From: Longispora albida DSM 44784
Lineage (GTDB): Bacteria > Actinomycetota > Actinomycetes > Mycobacteriales > Micromonosporaceae
Reading direction: 5' to 3'
NCBI RefSeq assembly: GCF_000379825.1
Contig: NZ_KB903833.1
Span: 187,022-251,021, forward strand
Length of the DNA: 64,000 nt
Numbering within the stretch: the stretch's first letter is position 1; every line of letters begins with the position of its first letter. Shown here piece by piece: positions 1-9,686 of the stretch. The notes below the pieces were generated by a model. That model saw nothing but the letters and a program-made list of their open reading frames with translations. It was not told the origin of the DNA and ran no database searches. A program made the position numbers and the translations under genes.

Positions 1-919
1 CGAGCGTCGGGGTTCCGCCGTGCCCCGCTCGGGCGGAGTACGCAGAGGACGGGTCGCCGGGACGCCGCCACAGTTCCGCGCCGTCCCGCTCCCGGCCCAC
101 CAGGGTCCATCCGGATGGGGCGAGGATGTCGGCCCAGGTGCAGCCGGCAGCGAGGGCGTCGAACGGGGTGCCGTCACCAGCGGGACCGGCAGCACGCGGT
201 TCCGGGGCCGGAAGGCTCGGAGCCAGCGGCGCGGGTGCGGGCTGGGCGGCCTGAGCAGCTTCCAGGGCGGCGTACAGCTCGGGCAGGGTGAACGACACCC
301 CATCGGCCCGCAGCAGCCTGCACGGACGCTGGAGGCCCTCTTTGCGGTTGACGGTGCCGGGGATGCGCAGCACCCGCGCCAGGTCCCCTACGCCGGTGCC
401 GTAGTGCCAGCCGAGCCGCTCGGCTGCCGCACCGATGGCCTGCTGCCAGCCTGCTGATAGGGCGGCGACCTGTTCGAGGTCCCCGTCAATGACGTGCGGC
501 ACGTCGAGCAGCCACAGTGGGTAGACGCCACCGCCGGAGTGGATCCACATCGATGGCTCGGGCAAGCCGGCGGCGGCGGCGATCTGGGCGGCGGCCTCGG
601 GGTCCGGGGGCAGCGGGATGGGGGTGGTGGCGTGCCCGGGACCGTTGATGTCGATGTCGGCCCACAGGCCCGGGAACGCGAGCGACAGCTCGGCGCCGCC
701 CCGGCCGGAGCGGGGACGTTCGGTCAGGGTGGTCATTCGGGCGTAGATGCCCTGGCAGCCCTCGGCGTCGAGCTGGGCGACGTAGTCGACGGCCTGGTCG
801 AGCTGATCGGGCGCGTACACCTTGCCCTGCCAATTGTCAGTGGCAACGATGTTGAGCAGGCCGGGCGTCTCGCTGTACATCAGGTCGAACCAGTTGGCGA
901 CGACTGCGCGATCGAACAC
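1..919 (-). CDS. Bifunctional primase-polymerase (prim-pol type), C-terminus cut by window edge
   Basis: The frame runs open from a GTG at 919 to the window edge, giving 306 codons without a stop. GAGGGG lies 7 nt before the GTG and supports this start. Residues 86-90 read WADID, the metal-binding acidic pair expected of archaeo-eukaryotic type primases. They are followed by HSGGGVYPLW (127-136) and DLARVLRIPGT (179-189), a motif series typical of mobile-element prim-pol replication proteins. The family primes and copies DNA for plasmids, phages and integrative elements, often fused to a helicase. That part, if present, lies to the left of the window. It is the most downstream gene seen of the leftward element operon. 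I am confident of the family, not of the exact role. Confidence 0.8.
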   Translation of the reverse strand, partial: MFDRAVVANWFDLMYSETPGLLNIVATDNWQGKVYAPDQLDQAVDYVAQLDAEGCQGIYARMTTLTERPRSGRGGAELSLAFPGLWADIDINGPGHATTPIPLPPDPEAAAQIAAAAGLPEPSMWIHSGGGVYPLWLLDVPHVIDGDLEQVAALSAGWQQAIGAAAERLGWHYGTGVGDLARVLRIPGTVNRKEGLQRPCRLLRADGVSFTLPELYAALEAAQAAQPAPAPLAPSLPAPEPRAAGPAGDGTPFDALAAGCTWADILAPSGWTLVGRERDGAELWRRPGDPSSAYSARAGHGGTPTL

Positions 920-1023
920 TGTGGCCCCTCCCCAGGGTTGTGCTGGTCTGTCTGTGCGGCGCTCGGCCAGATGGCACCGCCCACCGGCCCCCGTAGACCG
1001 ATGGACGACGCGAACGGGCCGGG

Positions 1024-1572
1024 CTACTGGGCGCGCTGCTGCGCTGCGAGCTGCTCGGCGAGGGCACGCGCCTCGGGTCCGAGCTGCGCGAGCAGGGCCT
1101 CGGGAATCCCGCCCGCCGCTGCGGCCGGAGCGGCAGCCGGAACGGGAACGGCGGGCGGCGGGCTGGCCGGGGCCGCGACGGTGCGGGCGAACGTCGGGTT
1201 TGACGCGATCCACGCCTCCGCGCGGGATACGGCTGCCGCATCGCCGGTGGCGTCCGCGAGGGCGTACCCGGGCTGCTTGCCGGGCTGCGGCGGCGTCATG
1301 ACGACCCGCCCGAGAACCAGATCGCCGAGCTGGCGCTTGAGGCTGCCGACCGTAGGCCCGTTGAACCACAAGACATCCCGGGCGATCACGCCAGGCAGGC
1401 CGGTGACCGGGTCAGGGCTGTCGAGGTCAGCAAAGTCGACCTTGATCGCGTCCTTCTCCCCGAAGGTCGTCGCGATCTTCTCGACATACTCCGTGGGCCT
1501 GACGATCAGCAGCCGGCCGACCAGATCACGCATCGGGGCTTTTTCGCCCCCCGCTGATGGTGCTGCGAACAT
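1024..1572 (-). CDS. Hypothetical mobile-element protein, 182 aa
   Basis: The start is the ATG at 1572, preceded at good distance by AAAGGAG. A longer reading from 1608 has no such site. The N-terminal half (about residues 1-120) looks globular, with MRDLVGRLLIVRPTEYVEKI near the start. The rest is a low-complexity Ala/Pro linker and a short helical tail ending in AEQLAAQQRAQ. I recognise the general type from actinobacterial phage and integrative-element replication regions but can name no function. It lies between the nuclease gene and the primase, 104 nt ahead of the latter and on the same strand, so a role in element replication or recombination is likely but inferred. Confidence 0.7.
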   Translation of the reverse strand: MFAAPSAGGEKAPMRDLVGRLLIVRPTEYVEKIATTFGEKDAIKVDFADLDSPDPVTGLPGVIARDVLWFNGPTVGSLKRQLGDLVLGRVVMTPPQPGKQPGYALADATGDAAAVSRAEAWIASNPTFARTVAAPASPPPAVPVPAAAPAAAAGGIPEALLAQLGPEARALAEQLAAQQRAQ

Positions 1573-1619
1573 GTGCGAACTCCTTTGTGGGTAGGGATTT
1601 GCAGCCAACGCCGCGCAGA

Positions 1620-2372
1620 TCAGGCAGCCAGAGCGCCAGGGCAGCCGTGGGCGTCAGCGGGGCCGGAGCCGGGCCGCCACGCCGGGCACCACGTGCAGGT
1701 AGCCGCAGGCGCGTCGGGCAGCAGCGCCCACCGCTCGGGGTGCGCGTCGAGATCGAGCAGCCGGGCCAGTGCACCGAGGCCGGACAGGCGGGCGAGGGCG
1801 TCCTCGGCAACAGCCGGGTCGTACGGCTCGGACCACACGTGCAGCCCGCTCAGCCACCCCGACCTGGGGTAGCAGGCCAGGGCGACCCGCTCGACGGAGA
1901 TGCCCTCACGGGCCAGCCCGTAGCCATAGAGCTGCACCTGCACCCTGTACTGGTCGCCAGGGCCGTCGCGCTTGATGGCCTTGAGGCTGTCCGCGCCGAG
2001 GATCTTGTGGTCGATCAGCGTGGCCGTGTCGGTGTCGTACAGGTCGCCGGTCCCGGTCAGGGTGTCGGTGATACGGACCCGCCGCTCGACGAGCCACCGC
2101 TCCCGCCCGAGGGCAGCGTTGTGGGCGCGGAAAGCGCGGGCCAGCCAGTCGTGCCCGGCGGTCCCGATGATGCTGGGCCACGGGTCGCCGCCGCTGTTGA
2201 CGGGTTCGACCCCGGCAGCCTCGTACGCGACTCGCCGCCCGCAGGGGTGCCCGACAGAGCTGGGTCCGATGCGCCGCTGACGGCTGCGCGGGGCACCGGC
2301 GGCGGCAGCCCGCACAACGTCCTGAAGGGACTGCGCGAGGCCGGACGAGCCTGAGGGGGCGTTGAAGATCAT
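1620..2372 (-). CDS. RecB/Cas4-like PD-(D/E)XK exonuclease with probable Fe-S cluster
   Basis: This 250-aa protein has the PD-(D/E)XK nuclease core: H74, D110 in GTGDLYD, D121 and K123 in LIDHK, and the downstream QYRVQVQLYGY helix (141-151) that matches the QxxxY motif of RecB-family nucleases. A cysteine at 44 plus C226, C229 and C244 reproduces the split four-cysteine arrangement that holds a 4Fe-4S cluster in Cas4 and AddB-type nucleases. Such proteins degrade or resect DNA ends, and in phages act in recombination. No cas genes are nearby, so a CRISPR role is unlikely. It lies in the leftward element operon. The 281 nt upstream hold no ORF I trust. Confidence 0.8.
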   Translation of the reverse strand: MIFNAPSGSSGLAQSLQDVVRAAAAGAPRSRQRRIGPSSVGHPCGRRVAYEAAGVEPVNSGGDPWPSIIGTAGHDWLARAFRAHNAALGRERWLVERRVRITDTLTGTGDLYDTDTATLIDHKILGADSLKAIKRDGPGDQYRVQVQLYGYGLAREGISVERVALACYPRSGWLSGLHVWSEPYDPAVAEDALARLSGLGALARLLDLDAHPERWALLPDAPAATCTWCPAWRPGSGPADAHGCPGALAA

Positions 2373-2653
2373 GACCCCACCGTCCCGGCCAGCTCGACGC
2401 CACGGCAGGGGGCAGCAGGGGGCACGAGGGGACCCGCCCCCGGCTGAACAGAGCGAACGTCTCGGTGGTCATGGGCTTCACGCTGCCGCCGGCCCGGTGT
2501 GCACCGGCAGGTTGCGACCCGTTGCGACCCGCAACGGTCACCGCTGCGACCAGCCCCGATCATGATCGTCATGGCCTCACCGTCCCCGGGCCAAGGCGGT
2601 GGCGGTAGTTGGCTGACGTGGTCCCGTGTAGTCCCGCCAGGTCCCGGGCCGGC

Positions 2654-2971
2654 TCACGCGGCGGCCTCGTCAACGAGGGAGAACCGGCGGCGGACGGTCT
2701 CGACAGTGCACTCCGCGACCAGTGCGGCCGGGGCCAGCTTGCGCAGCCGGGAAGCGTCGACCCGCCGGTCCGTGTAGGTGGAGAACCGCACGGCGACCCG
2801 GCCGGCGACGGTTCCGGCCTCAGCCTCGCCGAGCCTCGCCTCGATCACGCGGCGCAGCTCGTCACGGGCTGCGGCCCAGCGGCGGGCCTCGGCGTCGAGC
2901 TGGCGGAACGCCGTCAGCGTCGCAGTCAGGTCGTCGACGGCCAGCGTGGCCGGCGCGGGCTGCTCACTCAC
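2654..2971 (-). CDS. Small phage-type protein, probable nuclease partner
   Basis: The protein has 105 residues. The first half is a helical, charged segment (about 12-55) containing RRWAAARDELRRVIEARLGEA. The second half contains GRVAVRFSTYTDRRVDASRLRKLAP followed by a basic tail. This layout, with a predicted helix pair and then a short beta/basic segment, resembles small proteins found next to YqaJ or RecB-type nucleases in phage recombination modules; that link is from memory of the pattern. Its GTG start overlaps the stop of the LexA-like gene by 4 nt (GTGA), so the two are translationally coupled. The region after it (2373-2653) is probably untranslated. Function unknown. Confidence 0.6.
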   Translation of the reverse strand: MSEQPAPATLAVDDLTATLTAFRQLDAEARRWAAARDELRRVIEARLGEAEAGTVAGRVAVRFSTYTDRRVDASRLRKLAPAALVAECTVETVRRRFSLVDEAAA

Positions 2972-3204
2972 GCGACCACCCCCGCCCCTGCGGGCGTGAG
3001 CCGCAGCGTGCGGGCGCGGCTGGGGACGTGCTCGACCAGGCCGCCACTGGCGAGGCGGTCGACGTGGTAGCTGACGGTGGTGACGGATAGGCCGACTGCC
3101 TCGCCCAGGTCCCGCAGGCTCGGCGGGTATCCGCGCTCGGCCGTGTAGGCGTGCAGGGCGTGCAGCACGGCGACCCGCTCATCGGTCAGCACGTTCGTCC
3201 TCAT
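2968..3204 (-). CDS. LexA-type winged-helix DNA-binding domain without peptidase domain
   Basis: Residues 5-70 of this 78-aa protein match the N-terminal DNA-binding domain of LexA. LTDERVAVLHALHAYTAERGYPPSLRDLGEAVGLS (6-40) is close to actinobacterial LexA, and VTTVSYHVDRLASGGLVE (41-58) is the recognition helix and wing region. The Ser/Lys autopeptidase domain of LexA is absent; the protein stops after the wing. The start is ATG 3204, with AGGTGGGG just upstream. It overlaps the next gene by GTGA and an upstream 35-codon ORF by ATGA. It lies downstream of a promoter that carries an SOS box. A repressor of element genes that DNA damage cannot cleave is one reading; an activator or anti-repressor is possible. 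Confidence 0.75.
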   Translation of the reverse strand: MRTNVLTDERVAVLHALHAYTAERGYPPSLRDLGEAVGLSVTTVSYHVDRLASGGLVEHVPSRARTLRLTPAGAGVVA

Positions 3205-3308
3205 CGGACCCCACCTCTGCCGCTCACACCAGGCTTGCGGGCAAGGCGGGCGGGACTGCGCTGGCAAGCGCCGCGCGTCGCAGCGGAAGCTGCACAGGGA
3301 ACAGCCAT
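3201..3308 (-). CDS. Possible 35-codon leader ORF
   Basis: ATG 3308 follows GGAGG with 6-nt spacing, one of the best ribosome-binding sites in the element. The frame reads MAVPCAASAATRGACQRSP and continues to a TGA that overlaps the lexA-like ATG (ATGA). The peptide is basic, has two cysteines and resembles nothing I know. Good initiation signals and coupling argue that it is translated, perhaps only to deliver ribosomes to the next gene. Composition alone does not prove coding. Confidence 0.4.
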   Translation of the reverse strand: MAVPCAASAATRGACQRSPARLARKPGVSGRGGVR

Positions 3309-3361
3309 GATTCACCTCCATCAAATGGCCCGTTGGTTCTAACCGAGACCTGCGGGCCGAG

Positions 3362-3384
3362 AAAAAGCCGGGCGGGGACCCGGC
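3362..3384 (-). terminator. Intrinsic terminator in leader of lexA-like operon
   Basis: On the minus strand GCCGGG, a 6-nt loop and CCCGGC (3384-3367) are followed directly by TTTTT. It lies about 140 nt downstream of the SOS-box promoter and before the lexA-like gene. It should therefore end or attenuate transcripts starting there. Confidence 0.6.
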
Positions 3385-3523
3385 GGACAGCGCACCCCGG
3401 CCCGTCTCGCACGGGCTGCCGGCTCGGCCAGGCGGGGGCCACCCCGGCTGCACAAGGCGGCGGGGCTTGTAAAGCTTGGTGGCACTCTGGAGTTCTCAAG
3501 GGACGATCACAGCGGGTGATTCA

Positions 3524-3555
3524 TCGAACCTACGTTCGCATGATCGAACCGTCAA
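3524..3555 (-). promoter_or_regulatory. Promoter overlapped by a LexA (SOS) box
   Basis: Minus-strand -35 TTGACG (3555-3550), 17-bp spacer and -10 TAGGTT (3532-3527) fit the actinobacterial housekeeping consensus. TCGAAC-CTAC-GTTCGC (3524-3539) covers the -10. It matches the actinobacterial SOS box TCGAAC-N4-GTTCGA at 11 of the 12 conserved positions. A further half-site TCGAAC lies at 3544-3549. LexA bound here would block the promoter. Confidence 0.7.
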
Positions 3556-3702
3556 CTGTTTCAGCCGACGCATGGTGCGATGCGACCGAAAGGTTTAGTG
3601 CAGGCGTTCTAGAGACCTGGGAGCATGCATGAGCCAGCTCCCCCGGGGGAACCTCTCTGTAGAGCCTGGCGCCTGATGCAAAAAAGGTACCTTCGGAAAG
3701 TG

Positions 3703-3740
3703 TTGTGAGGGCACGCTAAGTTCTAGCTAAGTGCCGCTAA
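3703..3740 (+). promoter_or_regulatory. Three helically phased GCTAA repeats, possible operator of the double-HTH gene
   Basis: GCTAAG at 3715 and 3726 and GCTAA at 3736 are spaced 11 and 10 bp, about one helical turn each. They sit just before the double-HTH gene. TTGTGA (3703) and TAGCTA (3724) could be its -35 and -10, but the 15-bp spacer is short. A binding site for the neighbouring regulator is inferred. Confidence 0.4.
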
Positions 3741-3788
3741 CACAGGTGGCCAGCGGGTATGCGACCCGCTCAGGGGAGGAGGCCGCGC

Positions 3789-4631
3789 GTGCTGACGTTC
3801 ACCGATGTTTTCGAGGCCCAGCGCGCCGGGCGCTCGTACAAGGCTCTCGCCGATGAGGTCGGTATCCATCACACGGCGATCTTCAGCCTGGCGAGCGGGG
3901 CCAACACCGAGTTTCCCTCGCGGTCCACCATCGGCCCTCTCGCCGCCGCCCTGCGCGTTACCGAGCCGGGGCTGATCGCGGCCATAGCCCAGGGGCTCGG
4001 CATAGACATGGGCCTGATTGAGATCCCGCGCCTGACCCTCGCGCACGAACTTCCCCCCGAGTCCGACGAGCTGCGCGACCCGCTGCGGCGGAGCATCCTC
4101 GACACCATCTGGTCACTCGTCAGCCTCGCCGGGCATCCCCCGCGCCCCCGGCCCCACACGCCGGTCCAGATCGCTGCCGCCGAGCCCACCCCGACCTTGT
4201 CAGCCTTGATCAGGGCACACAAAGGGGACAGGACCGCCAAGGCACTCGCCGCCGGAATCGGTATCGGCACCACTACCCTGCACACCCTGACGACCGGCAC
4301 CAACACGGAGTTCCCCCGGCCCCTCACACTGATCGGAATCGCCGGCGCCCTGCGGGTACCTCAACGTCTCGTCGTCTCAGCCACCGCAGTCGGGCTGGGA
4401 TTCGACATGGACGCCGCCAGCCAGCCCGCTTCCCAGTTCGGCGCGGAAATCCCTCCCGAAGCCGACCAGCTCCCCGAAGCCAGCCGGCAGGCCATCATTG
4501 ACCTGGTGCTCTCGTCCCTGGCGATCATCTACGCCCCGTTTGCGCCGCAAACCGAGGACCCCGCGCAGCCAGCCCCGGAGACAGCGGATCAGGTCGCGGC
4601 AAGCGTCCGCCACCTACGCCGCGCACAGTGA
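3789..4631 (+). CDS. Regulator made of two tandem copies of one HTH-containing unit
   Basis: GTG 3789 is chosen because GGGGAGGAGG ends 6 nt before it; an ATG at 3759 has no such site. The 280-aa product is an internal duplication. Residues 3-74 and 136-207 align: SYKALADEVGIHHTAIFSLASGANTEF against TAKALAAGIGIGTTTLHTLTTGTNTEF, each ending LG(I/F)DM. The following tails also align (ELPPESDELRD at 87, EIPPEADQLPE at 220). Each unit contains a helix-turn-helix of the Xre/Cro type. A protein with two fused DNA-binding units probably binds paired or extended sites as a monomer. It is transcribed divergently from the lexA-like operon, the position of an element regulator. Its targets are unknown. 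Confidence 0.75.
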   Translation: MLTFTDVFEAQRAGRSYKALADEVGIHHTAIFSLASGANTEFPSRSTIGPLAAALRVTEPGLIAAIAQGLGIDMGLIEIPRLTLAHELPPESDELRDPLRRSILDTIWSLVSLAGHPPRPRPHTPVQIAAAEPTPTLSALIRAHKGDRTAKALAAGIGIGTTTLHTLTTGTNTEFPRPLTLIGIAGALRVPQRLVVSATAVGLGFDMDAASQPASQFGAEIPPEADQLPEASRQAIIDLVLSSLAIIYAPFAPQTEDPAQPAPETADQVAASVRHLRRAQ

Positions 4632-4856
4632 CGTTCACCACATCCCGTGACAGCATTGGCGCTCAATGGCGCTCATTGCCACGCATTCACACGAACCACA
4701 TCGTTCACTCTTTGCAATCACAAATTGTGAAGTCCCACGTGTCACAGAGTGCGGTTAGGATCAACCCCCTACCCGGCCCCACCGCTGGGGAGACGAGCAA
4801 ACCCGCCGGTCACTGACCTAACAGGACCTCCAGCGGGTGTAGGGGAGGCACACACG

Positions 4857-5336
4857 GTGGACAGCACGACCAGTAACGATCCGCTGCGCGGCGCAGCACT
4901 CGCCCACCACCCGATCGTGTGGTCCGGCAACGTCACGCGCGGCTGGTTCTCGCGCGAAGAGAACGCATACATTCTGCCCGACACCTGCGACACCGTGCGT
5001 ACCCGCGACGCCATCGCCTACGCCAAGGCGCGCGTCGAACTGATGGGCTCAAAGCTGCCCAGCCTCCACCGGCACATCGCGCGCCGCGCCTCGGCCAGCC
5101 TCATCAGCATCGAGACCCTCGCCGTTGCGATGGTGAGCTGCGACGGGCTCACCGCACAGGCACAGGCCCTCGGCGTGCTCCCCAGCACCCTCACCGACCG
5201 CATCGACACCCTCACCCTGCCCGAACGGCACAAGCTGACCCGCCTTATCGAGCAGTACCGCACCGACTGCGGTGGGCGCGTGTGGGAACTCCGCCGCCGG
5301 CTGCTCGTCGTATCCCCCCAAGACCTCGCCTCGTAA
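4857..5336 (+). CDS. Hypothetical element protein, 159 aa
   Basis: GTG 4857 follows AGGGGAGG at 8 nt. A longer reading from 4749 lacks a site and runs through the likely promoter area. The protein is mostly helical. The middle (RRASASLISIETLAVAMV, about 80-97) and the C-terminal TLPERHKLTRLIEQYRTDC segment look like a compact helical fold. I recognise no family and no catalytic motif. The 225 nt between this gene and the double-HTH gene contain TAGGAT (4756), a possible -10, and the small palindrome CACAAATTGTG. It converges on the integrase gene with a shared terminator between. A function in excision or regulation would be a guess. Confidence 0.6.
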   Translation: MDSTTSNDPLRGAALAHHPIVWSGNVTRGWFSREENAYILPDTCDTVRTRDAIAYAKARVELMGSKLPSLHRHIARRASASLISIETLAVAMVSCDGLTAQAQALGVLPSTLTDRIDTLTLPERHKLTRLIEQYRTDCGGRVWELRRRLLVVSPQDLAS

Positions 5337-5343
5337 ACACAGC

Positions 5344-5382
5344 TGAGGTGCCGCCCCGGGGTGTCACGGCGACGGCACCTCA
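5344..5382. terminator. Bidirectional terminator between convergent genes
   Basis: TGAGGTGCCG (5344-5353) pairs with CGGCACCTCA (5373-5382). The hairpin lies between the stop of the hypothetical gene and the stop of the integrase gene, so it can serve both. Confidence 0.6.
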
Positions 5383-5397
5383 CCCAGTCCTACGCGT

Positions 5398-6561
5398 CTA
5401 CGCCGCCGCTGAACGCTTACCCCGGCGGCGACTCTCCAGCTCGACGACCCCAGCAGCCGGTGCAGCCGGCTCAGGCTCGGCGTACATCCGCCGCCCCTGC
5501 AACAGCGCGCGCAGCTTGTCGCGGTGGGTGTCAACGCCGATGTACGCCATCGTGGTCGAGATGTTCGCGTGCCCCAGCAACGTCTGCACCATCACCAGCG
5601 CGTCATCCGTGCCGCTGTCCCTCAGCCGCTCGTACAGCGCTTTTGCGGCCGAACGGCGCAGGGTGTGACCCCCAACCTGCTTGAGGCCCCCAGGCTCCCA
5701 CCCGAGGGCCTTGAGCACGAACTTGATGGAGCGTTCGATGGTCTGCCTGCGCAGCGGCTTCTCAGGGTCAACCGGCCACTGTGGAACCATCCGCATCACG
5801 CCCGGCGCATTCCTAAGCCCCCGGGGCATGCCCGGCGATCCGCTGGGCAGCCGCGCCGGAAGCAGGTACCAGCCCGCAACCAGCCGGGTCCGGCCGGACA
5901 TCTGCCGGTACCACCCGAAGTAGGTCACCAGTTCTTCCAGCAGTTCAGCGCAGATGGGCTTGCGTTCCCGCTTCTGGGTCTTCGGGGACACCAGCTCAAT
6001 TTCCATCGCTGCGAAGTCCACCGACTCGATCCGCAGCAGTACCGCCTCACCCGGACGGCACCCCAGGTAGATCCCGAGCGCCGCCGCCATCCGCTCAACC
6101 GGGTGCCGCTGGCCAGCGGCCTCCAGCATCTCGGGCAGCCGCTCCGCCGGAACACGATGCAGCGTGTTCGCCACAGCCTTCCTCGCGTACTTCAACTCGG
6201 CGGTCGCGGTCAGCGTAGGCAGCACATAGGCCCGGTCCCGCGCCCACTCCAGGAACATGCTCAGGCTGGCGCGGTCGCTGTTAAGCGACGCCTGCGACTT
6301 TCCCGTGCGCCGCCCGCCGAGATGCGCGTCTCCCTGCTCGATGTCCTGCAAGCACAAGTCAATGTGCCGGGCGCGCAGATCGTCGGTACGCAGCCCAGCA
6401 GCGGCAGCCTGCAAGCGCTGCAGGGTCGCCCGCCGCTGCCGCTGCGTCGAGTCCGACAGCCGGGAGAACACCGACGACGACGTGTACTCCTCGATCGCGT
6501 CCGCGACCGGGATGCTGTAGATCATGGGGACAGCCCTTCGAGTGATCAGCGTGTCCCGCAT
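5398..6561 (-). CDS. int: Tyrosine recombinase (integrase) of the mobile element
   Basis: The 387-aa protein has an N-terminal SAM-like core-binding domain (about 18-115) and a catalytic domain with the full active-site set: R169 in LGCRPGEA, K194 in SPKTQK, H299 and R302 in GHTLRRS, H331 in LLGHAN and the nucleophile Y340 in TTMAYIGV. It would integrate and excise the element by strand exchange at an attachment site. ATG 6561 has GAGGG at 5 nt; ATG 6525 with AAGGG at 8 nt is an alternative giving 375 aa. Its place at the end of the element next to core genes suggests the attachment site lies in or near 6560-6990. Two palindromes overlap its promoter. Confidence 0.93.
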   Translation of the reverse strand: MRDTLITRRAVPMIYSIPVADAIEEYTSSSVFSRLSDSTQRQRRATLQRLQAAAAGLRTDDLRARHIDLCLQDIEQGDAHLGGRRTGKSQASLNSDRASLSMFLEWARDRAYVLPTLTATAELKYARKAVANTLHRVPAERLPEMLEAAGQRHPVERMAAALGIYLGCRPGEAVLLRIESVDFAAMEIELVSPKTQKRERKPICAELLEELVTYFGWYRQMSGRTRLVAGWYLLPARLPSGSPGMPRGLRNAPGVMRMVPQWPVDPEKPLRRQTIERSIKFVLKALGWEPGGLKQVGGHTLRRSAAKALYERLRDSGTDDALVMVQTLLGHANISTTMAYIGVDTHRDKLRALLQGRRMYAEPEPAAPAAGVVELESRRRGKRSAAA

Positions 6562-6593
6562 GTCGACCCTCGCCCCCTGTTCAGTTGGATAAG

Positions 6594-6649
6594 CACCTAC
6601 CTCACACTACATCTAGTGCAAAGTTTCTAGATCGGCACTACATCTAGTG
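6594..6649 (-). promoter_or_regulatory. Integrase promoter with two identical operator-like palindromes
   Basis: CACTACATCTAGTG occurs at 6605-6618 and 6636-6649, 31 bp apart (about three helical turns). Each is a CACTA/TAGTG inverted repeat. The minus-strand -35 TTGCAC (6621-6616) overlaps the first; -10 TAGGTG is at 6599-6594 (16-bp spacer). Repressor sites or integrase arm sites are both possible. Confidence 0.6.
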
Positions 6650-6990
6650 GTGAATGCTTATGTGGACGACGGAGCGGGGTGTGGACAACGTCGCGCGGCG
6701 CGCGCCTGGTCAGCCCATGATCGCGATTGGCGCAGCCAAACCCAGCCGGAGCAGACGACACCTGCTCGGCCACAAGCGCGGCCCCGCACACACACCGACC
6801 CACGGGCCCACGGACCCAGGCAACGGCCGGAAGCCAACACCGATCACAGCCCTCTGGCGTCCAGTACCGTTCAACACCCCGGTGCCTAACCCGGCCGGCT
6901 TACGCCCGGGGACCGGGCAACAGGGCCGGCGGGCAGAGCAGCGTCACGCGGTACCAGAGAAACCGGTGTCCGGAACCCGGTACCGAAGAA
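6650..6990. other. Gene-free junction between mobile element and core genome
   Basis: About 340 bp without a credible gene separates the integrase promoter from the DUF2469 terminator. No tRNA gene is visible. The attachment-site core probably lies here or within the integrase leader but cannot be fixed without the other end of the element. Confidence 0.5.
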
Positions 6991-7028
6991 AAAGGCCCGG
7001 CAGCCCCCGTCAGGGGACCGCCGGGCCT
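6987..7028 (-). terminator. Intrinsic terminator of the lepB-rnhB-DUF2469 operon
   Basis: On the minus strand AGGCCCGGCGG and GGGG pair with CCCC and CCGGGCCT around a short loop. The stem is followed by TTTTTCTTC, 23 nt after the DUF2469 stop. Stem and T-tract make it a clear rho-independent terminator. Confidence 0.85.
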
Positions 7029-7050
7029 GAACAAGCCTTGCCGCTGGTCG

Positions 7051-7374
7051 TCAGCTCTGGAAGCCGTTGTCCGTCGGCAGGGAGATGTCTGGCTTCTCGA
7101 GTTCCTCGATGTTCACGTCCTTGAACGTGACCACCCGGACATTCTTCACGAAACGCGCGGGCCGGTACATGTCCCAGACCCAGGCGTCATGCATCTCCAC
7201 CTCGAAGTACACCTCGCCGTCGCCGTTGCGGACCCTCAGGTCCACCTGGTTGGCGAGGTAGAACCGCCGCTCGGTCTCCACCACGTACGAGAACTGGCGG
7301 ACGATGTCGCGGTACTCCCGGTAGAGCTGCAGCTCCATCTCGGTCTCGTACTTCTCGAGATCCTCAGCGCTCAT
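7051..7374 (-). CDS. DUF2469 family protein
   Basis: This 107-aa protein begins MSAEDLEKYETEMELQLYRE and has the conserved centre FYLANQVDLRVRNGDGEVYFE. These are hallmarks of the actinobacterial DUF2469 family (mycobacterial Rv2901c type), of normal length. The function is unknown. The family sits almost always beside rnhB and lepB, as here, which suggests a link to that operon rather than a defined activity. It is the last gene before an intrinsic terminator. No membrane segment or signal peptide is visible. Confidence 0.9.
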   Translation of the reverse strand: MSAEDLEKYETEMELQLYREYRDIVRQFSYVVETERRFYLANQVDLRVRNGDGEVYFEVEMHDAWVWDMYRPARFVKNVRVVTFKDVNIEELEKPDISLPTDNGFQS

Positions 7375-7489
7375 CGCCCACCGCCGTCCATGCCTGCATT
7401 CTCGCTCACTCCACCCCCCGAACCCGCGCCGCCCCTCGCCGCCACGCCGGCACGCCGCCCCAGACGAACCCGGAACCGCCCAGACGAAC

Positions 7490-8164
7490 CTAGACGAGCG
7501 TCCCCTGAACGCTTCCCGCCGGCCGGCGCTCCGCAGCCCTCGCCACGTTCTGGTAGGACATGCGGTGTTCCGGGCAGGGGCCGTGCTCGGCCAGCGCCGC
7601 GCTGTGCTGGGCGGTCACGTAGCCCTTGTGCACCCCGAAACCGTACTCCGGATATCCGGCGTCCAGCTCAGCCATCCGGCGGTCCCTGGTCACCTTCGCG
7701 AGCACACTCGCCGCCGCGACGCACGCGGCGAACTGGTCGCCCTTCCACACCGCGAGGCCCGGCAGCCCCGTCCCGTCCACCTTGAACCCGTCGGTGAGGG
7801 CGTAGTCGGGGGTGACCGGCAGGGCGGCCAGCGCCCGCCGGAGCGCCGCGATGTTGCAGACGTGCAGGCCGTAACGGTCGATCTCGGCCGGCTCGATCAC
7901 CACGATCGAGTGGGCCGCCGCCCGGCGCAGGACCTGGGTGAACACCCGGTCCCTGGCCGCCGGGGTGAGCAGCTTGGAATCCGCCAGCTCCGGCACCTCA
8001 GCCGGGCCGAGGATCACCGCGGCGGCGACCAGGGGGCCAGCGCAGGCACCCCTGCCCGCCTCGTCGGCCCCGGCCACCGCGGCGAACCCGCGGCGGCGCA
8101 GGGCCTTCTCCAGGGCGTACAGCCCGCCGTCGCGGCGGATCACCCCTCGTGCCGGATAGATCAT
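7490..8164 (-). CDS. rnhB: Ribonuclease HII
   Basis: The enzyme removes ribonucleotides and RNA from RNA-DNA hybrids. The 224-aa protein shows the type 2 RNase H motif GADEAGRGACAGPLVAAAV (about 33-51), whose Asp-Glu pair binds metal, with further conserved ADSKLL, LTDGFKV and SVLAKVTRDR segments. I start it at ATG 8164, which overlaps the lepB stop (ATGA). The upstream extension to 8212 would overlap lepB by 50 nt. Translational coupling to lepB and the conserved neighbourhood make the call secure. Confidence 0.95.
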   Translation of the reverse strand: MIYPARGVIRRDGGLYALEKALRRRGFAAVAGADEAGRGACAGPLVAAAVILGPAEVPELADSKLLTPAARDRVFTQVLRRAAAHSIVVIEPAEIDRYGLHVCNIAALRRALAALPVTPDYALTDGFKVDGTGLPGLAVWKGDQFAACVAAASVLAKVTRDRRMAELDAGYPEYGFGVHKGYVTAQHSAALAEHGPCPEHRMSYQNVARAAERRPAGSVQGTLV

Positions 8165-8808
8165 GGTCCTGAGTTCGGCACCTTGTCGTACACGTCGGGC
8201 ACCGACAGCCACGTCGCGCGGCTGAACGGCCAGAACAGCACGAACGCCCGCCCGATGACGGCGTCCTCACTAATTGTGGCGCCTTCGGTGTTCCGGTTGC
8301 CCTGGAGGTAGTGCTCGCGGGAGTCACCGGAGTGGTAACGGTGGTCGCCCATCACCCACAGGCGGCCCTTGGGCACGACCACGTCGAAGGTCTGGGGGCT
8401 GGCGTCGCGGGTCTGGTCCGGCTCGTCGTAGACGTAGGAGGTCTCGTCGATCGGGTATCCGTTGACGGTGAGCCGGTTCTTGTCGTCGCAGCAGACGATG
8501 TGGTCGCCGCCGACGCCGATCACCCGCTTGATGAAGTCCTTCTCGTCCGGGTTGCTCCGCCAGGCCTGCGGGGCCTCGAAGACGATGACCTCACCGCGCT
8601 TGGGCGCACGGAAGCCGTACACCAGCTTGTTGACCAGCACCCGGTCGTTCTCGACGAGTGTCCGCTCCATCGACCCGGAGGGGATGTAGAACGTCTGCAG
8701 GACGAACCCCCGGACCAGCAGCGCCACGACGACGGCCACCACCAGCAGGAACGGCAGCTCGCGCCAGAACGATCCCGGTTTCTTCTTACTGGTCTCCTCG
8801 GCAATCAC
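8161..8808 (-). CDS. lepB: Signal peptidase I (second paralogue)
   Basis: A type I signal peptidase, which cuts signal peptides from exported proteins at the outer face of the membrane. The roughly 215-aa protein has one N-terminal membrane anchor (about 19-38), the serine nucleophile in IPSGSMERTL and the general-base lysine in DFIKRVIGVGGD, then VNGYP and a conserved VMGDHR. Only GTG 8808 or TTG 8811 can start it and neither has a strong ribosome site, so the start is uncertain. It lies 71 nt downstream of a longer lepB paralogue and overlaps rnhB by 4 nt. Confidence 0.92.
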   Translation of the reverse strand: MIAEETSKKKPGSFWRELPFLLVVAVVVALLVRGFVLQTFYIPSGSMERTLVENDRVLVNKLVYGFRAPKRGEVIVFEAPQAWRSNPDEKDFIKRVIGVGGDHIVCCDDKNRLTVNGYPIDETSYVYDEPDQTRDASPQTFDVVVPKGRLWVMGDHRYHSGDSREHYLQGNRNTEGATISEDAVIGRAFVLFWPFSRATWLSVPDVYDKVPNSGP

Positions 8809-8879
8809 CAAGGGAGCCTACGTCCCCGGCACGTGTGCGCCCGCATCGACACCACCAATGTTCCCCATCCCATAACGTG

Positions 8880-9686
8880 TCAGAGCCCCCGTCCGTCTTC
8901 CCGGTTCCGCGCCCAGGCGACGGGCACTCCGTCAAAGGTATCCGGAACGGTCAGGGAACCCCATCGTCCCACGGGGAGCGCGATAACACCCGCCCGGCCG
9001 ATGATGCTCTTGATGGGTACCTGCCCGTTGCACCGGGAGTCCTGCGACACGGCCCGGTGGTCGCCCATCACGAACACGTGGCCCGGCTGCACGATCACCT
9101 TGGCGAACTTGCGGGACCGGCACTCGCGGCCCGGCTGGGGGTCTTCGAGGAGGGAGTTGTTCTTGACGTACGGCTCGTTCAGCGGGAAGCCGTTGACGGT
9201 GACCCGGCCTTCGGCGTCGCAGCAGGCGACCACGTCGCCGGGGATGCCGATGATGCGCTTGATGAAGTCCTTCTCGCCGGGTTCGCTGACGCCGACCAGG
9301 TCGCCGAAGCCGCGGCCGATCCGGCCGAAGAAGCCCGGTTCCTCGGACTTCACGACCTCTGGTGCCCACTTGCCGTCGCCGCGGAACACGACGATCTCGC
9401 CACGCTCCGGCTTCCAGAAGTCGTAGACAATCTTGTTGACCAGGACCTTGTCGCCGACCTGGAGGGTGTCCTCCATCGAGCCGGACGGGATGTAGAAGGC
9501 CTGCACGAAGAACGTGCGGAGCAGGATCGCCAGGCACAGCGCGATCACGAGCAGCAGCGGCAGTTCCTGCCACCACGGCATCGCGCGGCGCTTGTCCCTC
9601 AGCCGCTGCCGGAGGCTGGCCCGGCGGGTGGTGCCACGCCCCTGCGGGTCGGCGGGGCCCTCTGCGGTGTCGGCTGGCTCGCTCAC
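8880..9686 (-). CDS. lepB: Signal peptidase I (first paralogue)
   Basis: A second signal peptidase I of about 268 aa from GTG 9686. It has a cytoplasmic basic tail (about 1-35), a membrane segment LPLLLVIALCLAILLRTFF, the nucleophile in YIPSGSMEDTL and the catalytic Lys in KDFIKRIIGIPGD. An insert containing EEPGFFGRIGRGFGDLVGV, absent from the paralogue next door, lies between the two motifs. The start is chosen to match family length; earlier in-frame starts give proline-rich sequence with no homology. Tandem lepB genes are known in actinomycetes with many secreted proteins. Substrate division between the two is not visible from sequence. Confidence 0.92.
   Translation of the reverse strand: MSEPADTAEGPADPQGRGTTRRASLRQRLRDKRRAMPWWQELPLLLVIALCLAILLRTFFVQAFYIPSGSMEDTLQVGDKVLVNKIVYDFWKPERGEIVVFRGDGKWAPEVVKSEEPGFFGRIGRGFGDLVGVSEPGEKDFIKRIIGIPGDVVACCDAEGRVTVNGFPLNEPYVKNNSLLEDPQPGRECRSRKFAKVIVQPGHVFVMGDHRAVSQDSRCNGQVPIKSIIGRAGVIALPVGRWGSLTVPDTFDGVPVAWARNREDGRGL

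Follow-up and report, generated by a model that had tools for sequence, protein, structure and literature searches.

The early region of an apparently complete actinomycete prophage (P1) contains a minus-strand promoter, divergent from the prophage's repressor gene, whose −10 hexamer is covered by an SOS (LexA) box and whose leader carries, at about +20, a sequence that we read as an rRNA-type boxA/boxC (nut-like) signal of actinobacteria. As the best explanation of this arrangement we favour, with little more than even confidence, a LexA-gated early leader that would recruit host Nus factors for read-through by the polymerase. What can be read from the sequence itself is the prophage context, the conservation of promoter, SOS box and boxA, and the rarity of the motif together with its identity with a stretch of the rRNA leaders. 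The original prediction had named two possible products, a small damage-inducible RNA of about 150 nt and an attenuated leader with conditional read-through. The second is the option favoured here, with its condition now specified as the rRNA-type boxA/boxC signal at about +20, which was absent from that prediction; the first may persist as a by-product, nothing beyond the hairpin speaking for its stand-alone form.

Gene calls suggest that P1 extends roughly from −34 kb to 6.6 kb in coordinates of the window (the whole 64-kb stretch of DNA that was analysed), and Pfam and PHROGs matches assign it terminase, portal, major head, tape measure, primase, integrase, exonuclease and repressor-type genes. 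A second prophage with the same layout, P2, lies in the same genome (contig C1, from about 873 kb), and two similar ones, P3a and P3b, are present in one other genome of the genus (G040). Since the leaders of P3a and P3b are 95% alike, the comparison comprises three lineages, not four. Early genes lie directly 3′ of the leader in all four prophages. P1 (window 6600–7400) and P3b (G040:C1, about 7798000) occupy the same neighbourhood, beside a DUF2469-type gene, and P2 and P3a share a different one.

The first ORF 3′ of the leader hairpin with a good Shine-Dalgarno sequence encodes 35 aa (3201..3308, minus strand, ATG at 3308); no such ORF was seen in the other prophages, P2 and P3, whose helix-turn-helix (HTH) gene comes directly. 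In P1 this HTH gene (2968..3204, minus strand) encodes a LexA-type winged-helix protein of 78 aa comprising the DNA-binding domain only (PF01726, E = 7e-12), which shares 34% identity over 68 residues with the N-terminal part of host LexA. The protein has no peptidase domain and could be a competitor of host LexA for SOS boxes or, alternatively, a regulator of its own promoter. Further early genes on the minus strand encode a protein of unknown function (phrog_1956, 2654..2971) and a phage exonuclease (phrog_1674, 1620..2372) with homologues in 369 phage records. The divergent repressor-type gene (3759..4631, plus strand) has two HTH-like regions and matches phrog_12831, “transcriptional repressor”, with an E-value of 7e-38, its Pfam HTH matches falling just under the cut-offs. 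Neither Pfam nor PHROGs reveals a peptidase domain in it, and direct control by LexA could therefore supply the link to DNA damage. The tyrosine integrase of the prophage (5398..6561, minus strand) was recognised with both Pfam and PHROGs. Compared with named phages, the LexA-like HTH protein gave seven distant matches only and the repressor none.

The −35 hexamer TTGACG (3550..3555) and the −10 hexamer TAGGTT (3527..3532) are separated by a spacer of 17 nt (TTGACG 3555–3550 to TAGGTT 3532–3527, minus strand), placing the predicted transcription start, as read from the sequence, at about 3520 on the minus strand. By its position, this would be the early lytic promoter. All four prophages have TTGAC-N18-TAGGTT in common, with TTGAC kept and TAGGTT invariant. 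A hexamer scan of positions 1–9000 found no promoter (0.6 expected) and missed this one because TAGGTT matches only three of the six consensus bases; we identify it as a promoter because it is conserved in P2, P3a and P3b. A consensus promoter with a near-perfect SOS box had been predicted, and both elements are indeed present and conserved in the relatives.

The 16-bp SOS box gCGAACgtagGTTCGa (3524..3539, minus strand), located over the −10 by core matching and prophage comparison, agrees with 11 of the 12 half-site bases and, at the promoter (3539–3524), fits the 16-bp motif published for Streptomyces LexA, tCGAAC-N4-GNNCGa (PMC9380542). The 64-kb window contains its exact core, CGAAC-N4-GTTCG, a single time, and the 6.8-Mb genome has 18 sites with it, compared with five for the reversed control. 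According to a crude gene caller, 11 of the 18 lie inside genes, while the non-genic sites include positions upstream of lexA and ruvC (labels from reading the proteins), of a SAV_6107-type HEPN gene and of dcd (both by Pfam), as well as one site in P2 and that of P1 itself. Of the four prophages, only P2 departs from the exact core, by a single mismatch (CGCACATAGGTTCG). Moreover, the left half-site CGAAC is kept in P1, P3a and P3b although the neighbouring spacer bases have diverged, so that the half-site itself has arguably been selected. Comparison with the relatives thus makes SOS control of the promoter a well-supported reading, and the box itself suggests that LexA would bind there and that damage would trigger the start.

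The palindrome could instead be the phage repressor's own operator, its likeness to a LexA box being coincidental. It does overlap a promoter that diverges from the repressor gene, and in P1 alone a second 16-bp palindrome, GTTCGATCATGCGAAC (3534–3549, minus strand), overlaps the SOS box in the promoter spacer. We regard this as unlikely, because boxes matching the first palindrome precede the host lexA, ruvC and HEPN genes and because P2, P3a and P3b lack the second one. P2 and P3b each have a second SOS-type box (CGAACAGGCGTTCG and CGAACAAGCGTTCG; L058:2494 and L080:1724) near the start of a gene between repressor and integrase; P1 has no second SOS-type box within two mismatches.

The leaders of the four prophages carry (T/C)TTGAGAACTCC at about +20, in the form CTTGAGAACTCC in P1 (3489..3500, minus strand) and TTTGAGAACTCC in P2, P3a and P3b, at distances from the −10 of 26, 27, 26 and 26 nt in P1, P2, P3b and P3a. 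Within the 6.8-Mb genome, TTGAGAACTCC has three sites (reversed control, none), namely P1, P2 and C22:317601, all of which are leaders of mobile elements. The shorter description TTTGAGAACTC has six genomic sites (reversed control, none), comprising four 16S rRNA leaders, P2 and the element on C22; Rfam confirms the four as 16S rRNA leaders and, over the boxA loci, returned 16S only. The host rRNA form is TGTTCTTTGAGAACTCAACAG, a stretch that we take, by similarity, to be host boxA plus boxC. The core TTTGAGAACTC is common to the four rRNA leaders, P2, P3a and P3b, and P1 differs from the rRNA form by one base (CTTGAG for TTTGAG); TGTTC, the upstream part of the rRNA form, is not kept in the prophage leaders. 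The C22 site (locus L101) precedes genes for a NUDIX protein, an RRQRL zinc protein, an FtsK-like protein and a prim-pol, an element that we read as AICE-like. In its leader, the signal follows a TTGACC promoter-like sequence with CCTAGG repeats by about 100 nt.

Beyond the genus, the evidence for the signal is thinner. A BLAST search of the P1 leader against 300 family genomes matched 40 of them and missed G040, the genome that holds P3a and P3b, so its sensitivity was low; the second match in the own genome was P2. The 29 other loci from this search (L023–L051) were discarded, as none has GAGAACT in the vicinity of its match and they look like G+C-rich chance. Among 29 loci found through the exonuclease, the box is present in three (P1, P2 and P3b), and the remaining 26, mostly more distant relatives, had no such box upstream in the DNA examined. 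The motif CTTTGAGAACTCC occurs at 11 places in eight of 200 family genomes, compared with six reversed-control places. Members of the genus account for five, including L108, which is coding by eye, and outside the genus the six sites show no excess over the six of the control; three of these six are non-coding, L103 following a promoter-like sequence and L104 and L105 lying among tRNA genes, and the other three look coding. The sequence at these tRNA genes of two other genomes is CTTTGAGAACTCCACAGTGGATG (L104:1501, L105:1501), as if boxA served untranslated tRNA operons.

The SOS box followed by TTGAGAACT was found at four places in three (the own genome, G040 and G118) of 354 family genomes, and in viral contigs only in P1 and P3b; the G118 place, which by eye adjoins the end of a coding frame, looks like chance and was set aside. 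Across 394 genomes of the class, CTTTGAGAACTCCA has 12 places in eight genomes (reversed control, six places), some of them coding or in low-G+C genomes; five of the 10 outside the own genome are non-coding according to the gene caller, and G+C-rich. One genome, G491, has four CTTTGAGAACTCCATAG sites (L181, L188, L189 and L190), each 80–146 nt 3′ of one apparent kind of gene, the product of which resembles a DUF222/13E12 HNH protein.

Viral contigs scanned for the promoter together with TTTGAGAACTC gave 49 stretches, of which we examined the four with a G+C content above 0.55 (P2, P3b, Refuge and Yecey3), the other 45 having 0.53 or less. The Refuge and Yecey3 sites lie in non-coding right ends. 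We then compared 22 mycobacteriophage right ends, which had been selected for their resemblance to the Refuge leader or for being named in papers and are hence not a random sample (L5 and StarStuff are not among them). The exact 11-mer is present in three of the 22 (Refuge, Yecey3 and Vanisoa) and a one-mismatch form in four (Pharaoh, Jeeves, Gail and SororFago); eight have two-mismatch matches only, some away from the early promoter, and seven have nothing within two mismatches (Bxb1, IronMan, D29, Kampy, RedRock, Elephantoon and Bactobuster). In 10 of the right ends a box with at most two mismatches follows a promoter-like −10 by 23–26 nt, and the corresponding distances in Yecey3 and Vanisoa are 32 and 38 nt. 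Direct BLAST of the P1 leader against named phages gave no match. L5, D29 and StarStuff are known to produce abundant, stable and toxic non-coding RNAs from their early promoter, and Kampy and RedRock are named as similar to them (PMC5712189); the terms “boxA”, “Nus” and “antitermin” are absent from the main text of that study. As D29, Kampy and RedRock are without the motif, it is not needed for an abundant early RNA.

Downstream of the signal, P1 has an intrinsic-terminator-like hairpin with T5 (3362..3384, minus strand; −12.7 kcal/mol, z = −2.97), in which GCCGGGTCCCCGCCCGGC (3384–3367) is followed by the T tract to 3362. The original prediction was right to place a terminator with T5 before any good ORF, as the 35-aa ORF (3308) and the HTH gene (3204) both lie beyond it. 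An RNA from about 3520 to 3362 would measure about 158 nt. Terminator-like sites as a class show no excess over the 9 kb scanned (two found, 2.7 expected). Across the prophages, a hairpin before the genes keeps its position but not its sequence, ending in T5 in P1, T4 in P3a and P3b and no T tract in P2.

These features, an SOS promoter and a T5 hairpin before any good ORF, could mark a small regulatory RNA of about 158 nt that is induced by SOS and stands alone, with an incidental boxA-like sequence and minor read-through, and the abundant early non-coding RNAs of L5, D29 and StarStuff (PMC5712189), with D29 lacking a boxA-like motif, lend such an RNA a precedent. However, promoter and boxA have been kept among the relatives, whereas the hairpin is the least conserved part of the leader, varying in sequence and having lost or never had its T tract in P2; each of the four prophages has its early genes immediately 3′ of the leader, and Rfam gives no match at the gathering threshold. 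On these grounds a stand-alone small RNA appears improbable.

A possible conserved fold precedes the hairpin (3390..3465, minus strand). RNAalifold of the four leaders predicts a hairpin, then an outer stem enclosing two hairpins (a three-way junction) and finally the terminator hairpin. In the alignment, 93.5% of 139 cells pair, compared with 37–46% when the structure is slid. Of 500 shuffles, four attain the observed value for pairing, four that for changed cells, four that for covariation and 10 that for changed pairs. The covariance comparison in relatives that the original prediction had proposed gave a divided outcome: four of the 36 pairs (terminator helix included) change on both sides, but further pair types are no more frequent than in shuffles, 287 of 500 of which reach their count. 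Single-sequence folds of the leaders are not clearly better than shuffles (z from −0.9 to −2.5), and the minimum-energy fold of P1 differs from the consensus. Coming from four related rows, these values weakly suggest a three-way-junction fold. A covariance model (R1) run on 36 chosen loci matched P1, P2 and P3b, its own building set, and also L104 (E = 0.003, the tRNA array) and L079 (E = 0.017); a match at L027 (E = 0.005) was dropped, as it lies between chromosomal genes and has no boxA.

The doubly changed pairs and the loss of pairing upon sliding are what could be cited for a conditional attenuator, in which the leader fold itself would sense a ligand, a protein or translation and boxA would play no part. 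We consider this quite unlikely. Only four sequences, two of them 95% alike, stand behind the fold, and their further pair types are as in shuffles; boxA is the more strongly conserved block; and the leader belongs to no Rfam family, the 64-kb window containing no match at the gathering threshold and the best sub-threshold match, dauA, scoring 19 bits against a gathering threshold of 45. A leader peptide was likewise dropped, as no start or leader ORF with a ribosome site was seen by eye in P2 or P3.

We therefore return to the favoured explanation, a leader that recruits Nus factors, for which the components are known from rRNA transcription. boxA binds NusB/E, boxC-like RNA is cited as a ligand of an M. 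tuberculosis NusA fragment, and in E. coli both Rho-dependent and intrinsic termination are suppressed by the rRNA complex with SuhB (PMC6614801). The nut sites of M. tuberculosis lie just downstream of the rrn start, but recent findings, which speak against the favoured explanation, describe NusA binding to paused complexes as sequence-nonspecific (PMC12781872). From the arrangement in P1 we infer LexA binding, Nus recruitment, read-through and a short RNA, as follows. Host LexA on the box over the −10 would hold the promoter off until DNA damage removes it and transcription starts. About 20 nt into the RNA, the polymerase would transcribe the copy of the host rRNA boxA/boxC, on which NusA, NusB, S10/NusE, NusG and partners would be expected to assemble as on rRNA leaders. 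The modified polymerase would then pass the terminator-like hairpin about 140 nt downstream and continue along the early operon, and polymerases without the factors would stop there, releasing the RNA of about 158 nt as a product of failed read-through.

The same signal might also recruit Nus factors for an end other than passage of the hairpin, namely repression, an action on Rho, or stabilisation or processing of the leader RNA. At E. coli suhB, for instance, Nus factors at a boxA in the 5′ UTR promote Rho-dependent termination within the gene (PMC5725501). In P1, however, about 180 nt and a terminator-like hairpin separate the box from the first ORF, whereas the boxA considered in that study lies within 50 bp of gene starts (PMC5725501). 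This use of boxA is thus unlikely in our view; Rho-dependent effects could nevertheless be the real target of the signal, a point that we counted against the favoured explanation, together with the one-base departure of the P1 box from the rRNA form, the missing T tract in P2, the lack of an excess outside the genus, and the exonuclease loci and mycobacteriophage right ends that have no such box.

The closest known system is the actinobacterial rRNA leader, with the same core TTTGAGAACTC, exact in the four 16S leaders of the host. In the prophages, by contrast, the signal follows a LexA-boxed phage promoter and precedes protein genes and a terminator-like hairpin, and the core is followed by C instead of AAC, with one further change in P1. 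Lambdoid phages use N-dependent nut sites, in which an early phage promoter is followed by a boxA-type RNA signal, a terminator and early genes. P1 is alike in outline, but no boxB/N pair was recognised and the signal matches the host rRNA leader; Pfam and PHROGs scans of the early proteins gave no N-family match, short basic proteins being easily missed by such scans. The mycobacteriophage Pleft leader RNA of L5, D29 and StarStuff likewise combines an early lytic promoter with a long non-coding leader; unlike P1, it measures about 500 nt and has phage repressor operators and no evident stem-loop terminator (PMC5712189). boxA outside rRNA, at suhB and other genes, provides a precedent for Nus factors acting on mRNA leaders, with examples from E. 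coli and Citrobacter and a main text in which “Actinobacteria”, “Streptomyces” and “Mycobacter” do not occur (PMC5725501). In Streptomyces venezuelae, the LexA targets with the strongest induction by mitomycin C include prophage genes, and the main text of that report is without the term “small RNA” and, as far as we found, describes no leader signal (PMC9380542). The earlier statement that no SOS-controlled small RNA has been described accordingly needs narrowing, since LexA-target prophage genes (PMC9380542) and early non-coding RNAs of actinophages (PMC5712189) are known.

Control through boxA is already known outside rRNA and in lambdoid phages, and processive antitermination in actinobacterial phages seems hardly described. 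At the level of titles and abstracts in the open-access literature, we found no title or abstract opening that joins boxA or antitermination with actinophages, and no precedent for a LexA-boxed promoter combined with an rRNA-type boxA in actinobacterial prophages. A wider proposal, which we put forward tentatively and regard as doubtful, is that actinobacterial mobile elements (temperate phages, AICE-like elements and perhaps tRNA arrays) have repeatedly taken over the rRNA boxA/boxC of their hosts and, with no phage N protein involved, use the ribosomal antitermination machinery for their early operons. In the present case, LexA would gate initiation, and read-through would depend on how many Nus factors are free. 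If this is true, prophage induction would be coupled to both DNA damage and the growth state of the host. As the signal is a short, mutable sequence at a known place, the question is directly testable. The leader described here suggests that prophage induction might also respond to growth state, and it makes boxA a candidate function for the non-coding early leaders of those actinophages that carry the motif.
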